Assembly (NCBI RefSeq): GCF_009689585.1
Contig: NZ_AP018694.1
Coordinates: 806,001 to 870,000 of the forward strand
Length of the DNA stretch: 64,000 nt
Source: Aquipluma nitroreducens
GTDB taxonomy: Bacteria > Bacteroidota > Bacteroidia > Bacteroidales > Prolixibacteraceae
Reading direction: 5' to 3'
Under the pieces are notes generated by a model. It was not told where the DNA came from. It searched no databases and saw only the letters and a list, made by a program, of their open reading frames with translations. Positions within the stretch are counted from its first letter, which is position 1. Each line of letters opens with the position of its first letter. Of this stretch, positions 18,994 through 26,367 are shown in pieces. The translations under genes were made by a program, and so were the position numbers.

Positions 18994-19003
18994 TGAGATA
19001 TAA

Positions 19004-19078
19004 ATTATAAGTTATGAATGATGAGTTGTGATTGTTTGAAAAACTTCCGACTCGTGACTTCAAACTTCTGACTTTAAT
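19004..19078. repeat. Solo repeat arm between nuoC and nuoD
   Basis: TTATAAGTTATGAATGATGAG (landmark, starting near 19005) closely matches the left arm of the four-helix-bundle element at 25629-25660. It is followed by a second degenerate array of the type ACTTCnGACT (AACTTCCGACTCGTGACTT, then CAAACTTCTGACTT). No gene lies between. Confidence 0.6.
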
Positions 19079-19080
19079 AT

Positions 19081-20316
19081 ATGGCACAGAATTTCACTAC
19101 AGGTTATTGGGCTAAAGATATAGTAACTACTGAAGAGCCGAAGGAATACAACACGCTGAATGTCGGACCTACACATCCGGCAACGCATGGTGTATTCCAG
19201 AATGTGATGCTGATGGATGGCGAATTCATTGTCAGTACTGAACAAACCATTGGATACATTCACCGCGCTTTTGAAAAAATAGCCGAGCACCGTCCTTTTT
19301 ACCAGATCACACCGCTAACTGACAGACTGAACTATTGTTCCTCTCCGTTGAATAACATGGGCTGGCATATGACTGTCGAAAAATTACTCGGCATTGAAAC
19401 ACCAAAACGTGTCGATTACCTTCGGATAATTGTCATGGAGTTGGCTCGTATTGCCGACCATTTGGTTTGCAACACCGTTATTGGTGTTGACAGTGGCGCC
19501 CTCACCGGGTTTACTTACTTGTTTCAGGACAGGGAATTCATTTACGAAATTTACGAAGAAATATGTGGTTCGCGGTTGACCACCAACATGGGACGGATTG
19601 GAGGATTCGAGCGTAATTTCAGTGAAAAAGCATGGGATAAAATACGTTATTTCCTGAAAACGTACCCAGCCCATCTTCAGGAATTTGAAAACCTGCTTGC
19701 CCGAAACCGTATTTTCATGGATCGTACCATCAATGTTGGCGCATTTTCGGCTGATCGGGCTTTGGCATACGGATTTACCGGTCCAAATCTTCGTGCCTGC
19801 GGTGTTGACTATGATGTTCGGGTGATGAATCCGTATTGTTCGTACGACGAATTCGACTTTATTGTGCCAATCGGTCAAAGTGGCGACACTTACGATCGGT
19901 TTATGGTGCGTCAGGAAGAAATGAAACAAAGTTTATCCATCATAGAGCAGGCTTTGGCCAAACTCGATCAAATGGACGACAAAGAAACCTATTTTGCTGC
20001 CGATCCGCGTTTTGTTTTGCCACCTAAAGAGAAAGTTTACAACAACATGGAAGCGCTCATCTGGCATTTCAAAATTGTAATGGGCGAAACCGATATTCCG
20101 GCAGGAGAAGTTTACCATTGTATTGAAGCAGCCAACGGCGAACTGGGTTTTTACCTGATTAGCGATGGCGGCCGCACTCCTTCCCGATTGCATTTCCGCA
20201 GACCCTGTTTTATCTATTACCAGGCTTATCCTGAAATGGTAACCGGAAACATGTTGTCGGATGCTGTAATCACGCTGAGTTCGATGAACGTAATTGCCGG
20301 GGAGCTGGATGCCTAG
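19081..20316 (+). CDS. nuoD: NADH-quinone oxidoreductase subunit D
   Basis: NuoD is the 49-kDa peripheral subunit that builds most of the quinone-binding site. The 411-residue product has NVGPTHPATHGVFQ near the start, then HRAFEKIAEHRPFYQITPLTDR (split landmark). The C-terminal segment is GRTPSRLHFRRPCF, ending AGELDA. As in other complex I subunits, the hydrogenase-type nickel cysteines are absent. The ATG directly follows the repeat sequence at 19004-19078. Confidence 0.96.
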   Translation: MAQNFTTGYWAKDIVTTEEPKEYNTLNVGPTHPATHGVFQNVMLMDGEFIVSTEQTIGYIHRAFEKIAEHRPFYQITPLTDRLNYCSSPLNNMGWHMTVEKLLGIETPKRVDYLRIIVMELARIADHLVCNTVIGVDSGALTGFTYLFQDREFIYEIYEEICGSRLTTNMGRIGGFERNFSEKAWDKIRYFLKTYPAHLQEFENLLARNRIFMDRTINVGAFSADRALAYGFTGPNLRACGVDYDVRVMNPYCSYDEFDFIVPIGQSGDTYDRFMVRQEEMKQSLSIIEQALAKLDQMDDKETYFAADPRFVLPPKEKVYNNMEALIWHFKIVMGETDIPAGEVYHCIEAANGELGFYLISDGGRTPSRLHFRRPCFIYYQAYPEMVTGNMLSDAVITLSSMNVIAGELDA

Positions 20317-25035: not shown

Positions 25036-25037
25036 AG

Positions 25038-25113
25038 AAGTTCGGAGTGAGCTAGAGTTCGAAGTGTCTGGAGTTTTAACTCCAAACTCTGAAATTTAGG
25101 CACTCTAGGCACT
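25038..25113. repeat. Inverted repeat of the GTTCGAAGTGTCT family between nuoI and nuoJ
   Basis: The arms read AAGTTCGGAGTGAGCTAGAG and, in the other direction, AGTGCCTAGAGTGCCTAAAT. They meet at a perfect palindrome GGAGTT-TT-AACTCC (25070-25083). The segment GAGTTCGAAGTGTCTGGAGTT recurs, slightly changed, between gltB and gltD at 45541-45671. It would fold as a long imperfect hairpin in the nuo transcript. Confidence 0.65.
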
Positions 25114-25133
25114 AAATAAAAAAAGTAAATAAA

Positions 25134-25637
25134 ATGACATTTCTATTTTACCTGCTTTCGGCAATCATGGTTATTAGCGCATTAATGGTTATTTCTACCA
25201 GAAGTCCGATAAACAGTGTTCTTTCACTGATTGTGTGCTTTATCGCCATGGCAGGTCATTACATCTTGCTGAATGCCCAGTTTCTGGCGGTGGTACACTT
25301 AATTGTTTACACGGGAGCTATTATGGTTTTGTTTCTGTTTGTAATCATGCTCCTGAATTTGAACAAAGTAACCATTCCAACAAAAACCTCGGTAACCAGA
25401 ATATCGGCAGTAATAACCGGAGGATTATTTTTTCTGGTTATGGTTGCTGCAACACGACTGACGTTTGAAATACATCCGCGCTACCCGTTTACCAACCAAA
25501 TCGGATTGGTTTCCGAAGTAGGCAAAACATTGTTTAAGGAATTCCTTTTACCCTTTGAAGTATCATCAGTTCTATTTATTTCGGCTATGATTGGTGCAGT
25601 CATGTTTGGCAAAAAAGACGAGACTAAGAAGTTATGA
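25134..25637 (+). CDS. nuoJ: NADH-quinone oxidoreductase subunit J
   Basis: NuoJ is a five-helix membrane subunit of complex I. The 167-residue product has the conserved helix LIVYTGAIMVLFLFVIMLLN (near residues 60-80) that contains the pi-bulge region. Its last two codons and stop (AAG TTA TGA) coincide with the first copy of the AAGTTATGAGTT arm of the following inserted element, so the natural C-terminus may have been altered by a few residues. Confidence 0.94.
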   Translation: MTFLFYLLSAIMVISALMVISTRSPINSVLSLIVCFIAMAGHYILLNAQFLAVVHLIVYTGAIMVLFLFVIMLLNLNKVTIPTKTSVTRISAVITGGLFFLVMVAATRLTFEIHPRYPFTNQIGLVSEVGKTLFKEFLLPFEVSSVLFISAMIGAVMFGKKDETKKL

Positions 25638-26037
25638 GTTATTAATTATAAGTTATGAGTGAGAAGAAAAGCATCATAAAAGATAAGAGTTTTGCTTTTG
25701 CAGTGCGGGCTATCAGGCTTTTTCAATATTTGACCGAAATAAAAAAGGAATATGTGCTGAGCAAGCAATTATTGAGAAGCGGAACGGCTATTGGAGCTTT
25801 AGTTCGTGAAGCACAAAATGCCGAAAGCACCAAAGACTTCATTCATAAGTTGGGCATCGCTCAAAAAGAATGTGACGAAACCATTTACTGGCTCGAATTA
25901 TTGAAAGAAACAGAATACATAAACGATAAAGAATTTGAAAGTATAAACAATGAAGCGAATGAGTTACTGAAGATGCTTCGAAGTGCAATCATCACCTCAA
26001 AGAAAAATTTATAACTCATAACTTAGAACTCATAATT
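25629..26037. mobile_element. Putative minimal element: four-helix-bundle gene flanked by inverted tandem arms
   Basis: The left arm has two copies of AAGTTATGAGT (25629-25639 and 25650-25660). The right arm has two inverted copies, ACTCATAACTT (26014-26024) and AACTCATAATT (26027-26037). The arms enclose a single gene, and the whole unit sits exactly between nuoJ and nuoK, which are normally adjacent. The nuoJ stop lies in the left arm and the nuoK ATG abuts the right arm. The architecture recalls intervening sequences in some 23S rRNA genes. Mobility is inferred, not shown. Confidence 0.5.
25655..26014 (+). CDS. Four-helix-bundle protein (23S rRNA intervening-sequence / S23 family)
   Basis: The 119-residue product matches the S23/IVP-type four-helix-bundle family: an opening FAFAVRAIRLFQYL, the hallmark LSKQLLRSGTAIGALVREAQNAES (split landmark), KLGIAQKECDETIYWLELL and a last helix NEANELLKMLRSAI. 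Homologues are found as the only ORF inside 23S rRNA intervening sequences. The related fold appears in the Avd protein of diversity-generating retroelements. No function is established. It has no known relation to complex I although it would be co-transcribed with it. Its start and stop both touch the flanking arms. Confidence 0.85.
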   Translation: MSEKKSIIKDKSFAFAVRAIRLFQYLTEIKKEYVLSKQLLRSGTAIGALVREAQNAESTKDFIHKLGIAQKECDETIYWLELLKETEYINDKEFESINNEANELLKMLRSAIITSKKNL

Positions 26038-26367
26038 ATGCAAGACATATCATCTGCCATACAAGTTATTCCATTAGAGCATTACGTTTTTTTATGCGTA
26101 ACTCTTTTCAGCATTGGTTTGCTTGGAGTATTGTTCAGGCGAAATACAATCATCATTTTAATGTGTATCGAACTCATGTTCAACTCAGTAAATTTATTGG
26201 TTGCCGCATTTTCGGCCTACCATTCCGACCCGGCCGGACAGGTTTTCGTTTTCTTTATCATGATTGTAGCCGCTGCCGAAGTTGCCGTCGGCCTATCCAT
26301 TCTGGTGATGATGAAACGCAATGTGGATTCCGTAGATATTAACCTTTTGAACCGTTTGAAATGGTAG
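26038..26367 (+). CDS. nuoK: NADH-quinone oxidoreductase subunit K
   Basis: NuoK is a three-helix antiporter-like subunit. The 109-residue product has the conserved LMCIELMFNSVNLLVAAFS, with the key glutamate of helix 2 (GLLGVLFRRNTIIILMCIE, then a second in AAAEVAVGLSILV). It begins directly after the right arm of the inserted element and overlaps nuoL by 7 bases. Confidence 0.95.
   Translation: MQDISSAIQVIPLEHYVFLCVTLFSIGLLGVLFRRNTIIILMCIELMFNSVNLLVAAFSAYHSDPAGQVFVFFIMIVAAAEVAVGLSILVMMKRNVDSVDINLLNRLKW

Follow-up and report, generated by a model that had tools for sequence, protein, structure and literature searches.

The question raised by the nuo operon of Aquipluma nitroreducens is why a small gene framed by inverted repeats lies between nuoJ and nuoK, and what kind of element it represents. 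The window, i.e. the whole stretch of 64,000 nucleotides that was analysed, corresponds to bases 806001-870000 of the 5.71-Mb genome. All features described here are read on the + strand. Both neighbours are intact: nuoJ (25134..25637, PF00499), and nuoK (26038..26367, PF00420), which begins immediately past the right arm. Between them lies a four-helix-bundle gene of the 23S_rRNA_IVP/S23 type (25655..26014, 119 aa), characterized by profile matches, an AlphaFold model and dN/dS. It is enclosed by a left arm (25629..25660), a G-type heptamer array (AAGTTATGAGTTATTAATTATAAGTTATGAGT), and by a right arm (26006..26037), a C-type array (TTATAACTCATAACTTAGAACTCATAA) which is the left arm inverted and overlaps the 3' end of the gene. 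The arms are mutual inverted copies, 95% identical over 19 nt (25629-25647 versus 26006-26024), in agreement with an earlier note, made from the sequence alone, which had described a gene within inverted arms. The interlocking of the reading frames reported there could also be confirmed: the nuoJ stop codon (25635-25637) falls in the first left-arm unit, and the ATG of nuoK directly abuts the last unit of the right arm. Furthermore, the inner gene itself starts (25655) within the second left unit. The arm unit of 11 nt proposed in the same note, on the other hand, was not recovered; autocorrelation of the flanks gives a period of 7, and when read in register, the arms consist of heptamers in degenerate tandem copies, AGTTATR / ACTCATA. 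Scored at lag 7 alone, the left arm is a clear array (20/28 matches) and the right arm is not (14/28). The motif AACTCATAACTY occurs nine times genome-wide, two of these at the nuoJ-nuoK locus, versus once for the reversed control, and seven of the nine places are without the gene. The closest named match, a Prolixibacteraceae metagenome bin, encodes a 99% identical protein, likewise in the nuoJ-nuoK gap.

The 119-aa product matches PF05635 (E 9.9e-28, 96.9 bits versus a curated cut-off of 33.8) and TIGR02436 (E 9.8e-31, 106.2 bits versus a cut-off of 24), and thus belongs to the S23/IVP family as initially proposed. Among 148 sampled Bacteroidota genomes, 116 have a PF05635 match. The AlphaFold model of the protein consists of four helices (pLDDT 95.7); a solved homologue is 2rld (E 3.5e-36), and the Foldseek survey returned 2rld with a TM score of 0.91, the Xanthomonas structure 2gsc with 0.75 and Avd (4dwl_D) also with 0.75, such that the suspected likeness to the Avd fold stands, with a weak E value of 0.32. 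The 2rld entry contains five chains, and Avd is a pentamer; by analogy, the 119-aa protein is probably a pentamer as well. The protein is under purifying selection, since dN/dS is 0.015 versus G017 and 0.031 versus L059/L060, the latter at a dS of 1.27, close to saturation; four comparisons at greater distance were saturated. No recombinase, nuclease or reverse-transcriptase domain was found in the protein.

Early on it was suggested that gene and arms form one unit which entered a conserved operon without breaking any gene, and the nuoJ-nuoK junction of relatives bears this out. In the relative G003, window positions 25626-26019 are absent, and 25134-25625 and 26020-26367 adjoin; the two pieces overlap by 4 bp at the junction, where an arm remnant is retained, and this state could be a loss or an original absence. 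In G006, nuoJ directly adjoins nuoK. Retention of the gene in this gap with the arms missing, which according to the earlier note would argue against a unit, was encountered at none of the twelve gene-bearing nuoJ-nuoK loci inspected (L014, L029, L034, L035, L058-L062, L064, L065 and L073). G001 and G021 carry the gene with additional sequence past the left arm, and G020 and G013 have different sequence in the gap. In G020 (L031), the place of the gene is taken by an inverted pair, CCCCTCCACAGGAGGGG / CCTCCACTTGTGGTGGAGG, and hence the site may be a hotspot. A comparison within a single strain is provided by Azospirillum lipoferum 4B, whose rDNA copies with and without the cassette have near-identical flanks: the copy on plasmid p2 contains 469 bp of arms plus gene, that on plasmid p1 a 16-nt hairpin tip. 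With respect to target-site features, the A. lipoferum unit replaces the 16-nt tip with no duplication, and the G003 flanks show the 4-bp overlap. Insertion of the cassette as a unit is well supported. The cas6-cas4 region of Dolichospermum, considered as a clean empty site, was discarded: its flanks are ~99% identical and the cassette is missing, but another inverted-repeat insertion is present. This insertion is of the GTAGGTTGGGTT type in Dolichospermum UHCC 0315A (L321 300-620); at the corresponding place, Anabaena sp. 90 has the heptamer cassette.

A profile search revealed twelve PF05635 loci in the A. nitroreducens genome, eleven of them above the curated cut-off. The arms at these loci share a common design, and their word is specific to each locus (CCCATTG, CTCCGAA, TTGATAC, GGAGCAT etc.). 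Upstream and downstream flanks match with a mean of 18.5 in true pairs and 13.0 in crossed pairs; the observed sum was reached in 0 of 100,000 permutations, and the true partner was the best of twelve in seven rows and ranked 2 to 4 in the other five. Direct-orientation matches are high in these loci too (mean 16.83, median 12.5, as compared with 16.50 and 15.0 for inverted ones), so that inversion is not the sole arrangement at these loci. It is clear in the phylum loci, which are the 29 best-scoring matches and no random draw (15.4 inverted versus 9.6 direct). The first matching test on these 29 loci was weak (a sum as large as the real one arose in 3,212 of 100,000 permutations) because same-site relatives among the controls blurred the contrast, and the later phylum arm comparisons (mismatch, 120-nt flank) leave out same-site pairs. 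With 120-nt flanks, the 95th percentile of crossed pairs was exceeded by 12/12 own, 22/29 phylum and 13/79 named loci, the last figure being as expected if the named loci share one word. L108 (runs of N) was left out of the pair tables, and L139 includes N; L066, L073 and L125 have an internal stop; L162 was on the correct strand in the 120-nt flank comparison and mis-oriented in earlier ones, among them the mismatch-type count, the shuffled-arm control and the family-wide correlation.

The period of seven bases emerges from the lag-7 autocorrelation of 120-nt flanks, with an excess of +0.089 (own), +0.058 (phylum) and +0.124 (named loci) and a value of -0.011 for random 120-mers. PF05635 flanks also exceed at lags 14 and 21, and no period-7 excess was present 600 bp from the genes; a minority of the loci show period 8. 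When 19/28 lag-7 matches are taken as the threshold of a strong array, reached by 6 of 2,000 random 120-mers, 45 upstream and 39 downstream flanks qualify among the 79 named loci, and 12 upstream and 10 downstream flanks among the 41 other (own plus phylum) loci. The strong arrays have G over C upstream (54 of 57) and C over G downstream (44 of 49), counts that come from related, non-independent loci.

The protein clade of the query comprises 80 loci (the 79 named ones and L014) in 39 site clusters, with taxa that extend from Chryseobacterium and Chitinophagaceae through Prolixibacteraceae to Ignavibacteria. Pairs of this clade at different sites share their arms, the upstream-upstream match being 15.6 to 20.7 across identity bins versus 11.1 in a shuffled-arm control (sample of 300 pairs). 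Fifteen same-site pairs with less than 35% protein identity have a mean arm match of 11.8. Among the 41 loci outside the clade, the link between word and protein is weak (r 0.113, 48 of 2,000 permutations, one mis-oriented locus, L162, included). A strict correspondence of protein and word throughout the family was rejected, the link being strong only within the clade of the query.

Arrays of this kind were also found away from the genes. Within the 864 kb of the A. nitroreducens genome that were scanned, 27 gene-free arrays were detected at lag 7, and 2-7 at control lags. Their best match to the twelve resident loci has a mean of 15.33, as compared with 11.2 (maximum 11.8) for foreign sets, and none of 5,000 random sets of twelve foreign loci, taken from 25 of the 29 phylum loci (L145, L149, L154 and L160 excluded), reached the resident score. 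Resident arms read backwards gave 11.9, the forward reading being better for 25 of the 27 arrays (Wilcoxon 2.6e-5); the test covers arrays that contain at least four G/C bases. The idea that gene-free arrays are strict hairpins was rejected, as an inverted partner accompanies only three of the 27 at a distance of up to 160 nt (random 1.4%). In G093, 14 arrays, seven from 80 kb of stretches and seven from the outer flanks of its loci, scored 16.8 against resident words, 11.5 against foreign ones (0/5,000) and 12.1 backwards, with two of the 14 matching better backwards. G125 (11 copies, two arrays away from the gene in 340 kb) showed no difference in the resident-word test, with 12.83 versus 12.78; three arrays entered this comparison, and one of these flanks a PF05635 gene that was not on the list of loci. 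The earlier note had held that arms elsewhere without relation to the gene would argue against a unit. Gene-free arms do exist, but they carry the words of resident PF05635 loci, which fits their being dispersed derivatives.

Along these lines, six genomes with 9-14 PF05635 copies contain 28 strong arrays (44 at a looser threshold) in 1,524 kb, counted more than 600 nt from any PF05635 gene, versus no strong array and two at the looser threshold in 724.8 kb of fifteen genomes without PF05635; this is an association and not a corrected test, since the former were picked as high-copy, single-contig genomes and several of the latter are GC-rich, such that the comparison is confounded with lineage and GC. 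Sixteen of the 28 strong arrays reside in the A. nitroreducens genome, and each of the six genomes has at least one. Within one genus, G089 (nine copies) has three arrays in 80 kb and G148 (no copies) none in 40 kb.

The window itself contains such arrays. One in the nuoI/nuoJ gap (25037..25114; GAAGTTCGGAGTG.../...GGCACTCTAGGCACT; nuoI named from gene order only) bears a word which, on visual inspection, is that of the resident PF05635 locus L016 (at 1637725); the array lies under the threshold of the array scan and enters no statistic. At the same place, relatives show other words (GTAAATAGTAAAT type, G021/G001). Another gene-free array (18999..19026, TATAAATTATAAGTTATGAATGATGAGT) bears the word of the cassette itself, with L014 as best match (score 21.5). 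Over 18999-19085, a G-type array with one word precedes a C-type array with a different word, and the gene after these arrays is presumably nuoD, to judge from a sequence motif.

Beyond the phylum, PF05635 homologues occur on 29 plasmid records, of which 13 were retrieved and 12 analysed: ten cyanobacterial, one from Gemmatirosa and one from Azospirillum, the gene ends of the last two, which are unannotated, being estimated. The inverted arm score of these loci is 23.8 versus 12.2 for crossed pairs, and their autocorrelation is +0.151, +0.126 and +0.108 at lags 7, 14 and 21. Three of the twelve are without clear inverted arms (L293, which has direct arrays, L292 and L301), and the arms of L298 and L299 appear octameric. 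Cyanobacterial genes of the family lie inside CRISPR operons in three cases (L293, L294, L299), twice at cas6-cas4 and once at cas10-cmr3. Calothrix plasmids 1 and 2 were tried as a transposition pair and dropped; both flanks are homologous too, which leaves plasmid paralogy only. The Azospirillum locus L300 lies within 23S rRNA (RF02541, 1504.5 bits) and its arms are also heptamers, whereby a classical rRNA intervening sequence (IVS) joins the same set. The kinship with 23S rRNA IVSs suggested at the outset is thus upheld by L300 and by the A. lipoferum rDNA. Heptamers beside an S23p ORF were already known for one IVS, that of Coxiella, where the accessible text of PMC4990558 describes GACAGAT upstream of the ORF. 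For PF05635/S23p genes in general, heptamer arms are undescribed in the titles and abstract beginnings of the open-access papers surveyed.

Among known systems, the 23S rRNA IVS is similar in protein family, inverted termini and the ORF inside. The sizes are alike (about 410 bp for the nuoJ-nuoK unit, 428 nt in Coxiella according to the accessible part of PMC4990558, 469 bp in Azospirillum), as are the heptamers upstream of the Coxiella ORF, and L300 links both. The nuoJ-nuoK unit differs in its location in a protein operon and not in a 23S rRNA helix, and in having heptamer arms on both sides, locus-specific words and dispersed same-word arrays. RAYT/REP/REPIN systems likewise have a gene beside short repeats, with relatives dispersed genome-wide as inverted doublets (RAYT/REPIN; PMC3116915, accessible part), and a PF05635 gene in inverted short repeats with dispersed relatives in the same genome is what was found here. 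The PF05635 protein, however, has a four-helix-bundle fold and no Y1 nuclease, passing in this comparison only the PF05635 cut-off; its words are tandem heptamers, many per genome, and most dispersed heptamer arrays are not inverted doublets of the REPIN kind. On this analogy, the PF05635 cassette may, in the best reading, resemble RAYT/REP to some degree, although no nuclease is known for it. Avd of diversity-generating retroelements resembles the protein in fold (4dwl_D, TM 0.75, E 0.32 in Foldseek), but bAvd gives 14.8 bits versus a cut-off of 40, DivGenRetAVD stays far below its cut-off, and the genome has no RVT_1 match that could represent a partner reverse transcriptase. The terminal inverted repeats of the nuoJ-nuoK unit recall insertion sequences and MITEs, and the period of 7 bases at PF05635 loci (lags 7, 14 and 21) recalls tandem heptamer repeats (STRR-like). 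Finally, intergenic heptamers are described in the accessible parts of PMC4692102 and PMC4679880, namely GGGAATC in Xanthomonas, GGGGA(C/T)T in Nostoc and TAACTGA in Beggiatoaceae; these are also tandem 7-mers between genes, often as inverted pairs in Xanthomonas, but those texts draw no connection to PF05635/S23p genes, which such arrays bracket here.

The preferred reading, to which we assign a probability of roughly 0.55, is that of a mobile cassette of the IVS type; its protein would act on the heptamer arrays that belong to it, and the cassette would move or be copied by way of host enzymes. This reading proceeds from what was observed, namely the layout of gene and arms, the empty sites, the period of seven, the agreement of words within locus and genome, and purifying selection on the protein, from which we infer that the protein binds heptamers and drives their spread, with copying by host enzymes as the route. 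Segment 25629-26037 would then be a small insertion cassette, one four-helix-bundle gene in inverted, locus-specific heptamer arrays. The gene, probably without a promoter of its own, would be gained and lost with its arms as one unit, mostly at operon stop/start junctions and mostly along transcription, and the 23S rRNA IVS would represent the case with rRNA as the host transcript. Gene-free arrays elsewhere in the genome could be rationalized as dispersed, non-autonomous relatives of the cassette. The protein, a probable pentamer, may act in trans and bind arrays with its own word; host replication or repair would then copy, extend or spread the bound arrays. The same design with differing words and sites, found around PF05635 genes in several phyla, suggests a little-noticed kind of mobile element.

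A wider proposal is possible, and it is put forward tentatively. PF05635 proteins might make and keep heptameric repeats throughout the bacteria, each protein, a four-helix bundle free of nuclease, reading its own word and spreading, extending and homogenising the corresponding arrays, with word and protein drifting together, such that rRNA IVSs and the cyanobacterial and xanthomonad heptamers would form one system. The heptamers of Xanthomonas, Nostoc and Beggiatoaceae are candidates for membership. If true, three separate puzzles would join, i.e. the sporadic S23p rRNA IVSs, the over-abundant heptamers that lack a maker, and a very common but unexplained protein family, and PF05635 would gain a testable substrate in the heptamer word beside each gene.

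Some of the observations could also be accommodated at the level of RNA, an explanation we regard as unlikely. According to it, the two arms form a stem within the polycistronic mRNA that RNase III cleaves as in the 23S rRNA IVS, and the protein binds RNA and tunes the expression of its neighbours; as part of this RNA-level reading, such an insulator would keep the arms complementary by pairing as the words drift. The gene is indeed co-directional with both neighbours at 12/12 own, 22/26 phylum and 59/73 named loci, as judged by crude ORF calling where both neighbours were found. At the plasmid loci L291, among ribonucleotide reductase genes, and L292 it opposes both, so that co-direction is not universal. 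The arms are paired in the MFE and centroid folds, and where orthologous proteins at a fixed site have changed their word, both arms bear the new one by eye (L143 versus L148/L165), as with the several words of L138, L142, L145, L147, L149 and L154. The accessible text of PMC4990558 states that RNase III processes the Coxiella IVS, with ends within the stem. On the other hand, arm mismatches have no G.U bias, with 38 G.U-compatible versus 39 A.C-type in 34 of the 41 own and phylum loci (L162 mis-oriented) and 60 versus 76 in 57 of the 79 named loci, and the fold energy is ordinary (z -0.57, 35 of 100 shuffles equally good). On these grounds the RNA stem was rejected as the cause of arm matching, and this explanation would furthermore leave the shared words in distant gene-free arrays unaccounted for.

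Unlikely too, and ranked after it, is a purely mutational origin, in which slippage yields the heptamers and template switching the palindromes, and PF05635 genes sit or survive in hairpin-prone spots. To account for the abundance of heptamers, Mrazek (2007, as quoted in the accessible parts of PMC4679880 and PMC4692102) suggested slippage with a footprint of 7 nt, and the arms do resemble inverted DNA copies more than wobble-tolerant stems. Passive mutation is at odds, however, with the A. lipoferum rDNA copy that lacks arms and gene together between near-identical flanks, with the array counts of genomes without the family (0 strong and 2 looser in 725 kb) versus those with it (28 and 44 in 1,524 kb), and with words common to distant arrays and resident loci. 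The preferred reading of a cassette served by host enzymes accommodates these words as marks of dispersed relatives.

That another transposase, e.g. of the Y1/IS200 type, mobilises the unit with the four-helix gene as cargo is very improbable, as judged from the Y1 family, the one transposase family searched for: the genome has six Y1_Tnp genes, and hairpin ends suit single-strand transposition, but period-7 flanks occur at none of the six (best 17/28, threshold 19), three of them have inverted flanks of their own that are unrelated, and Y1 transposase was rejected as the mover of the cassette. The earlier note had left movement to a helper or an RNA-based route; a Y1 helper falls with the missing heptamer flanks, and RNA copying, i.e. 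a reverse-transcription route within this genome, with RVT_1, for which no match was found anywhere in the A. nitroreducens genome. Two of the six Y1 transposase matches, G000:C1:281739 and 388475 (L285, L286), contain in-frame stops.
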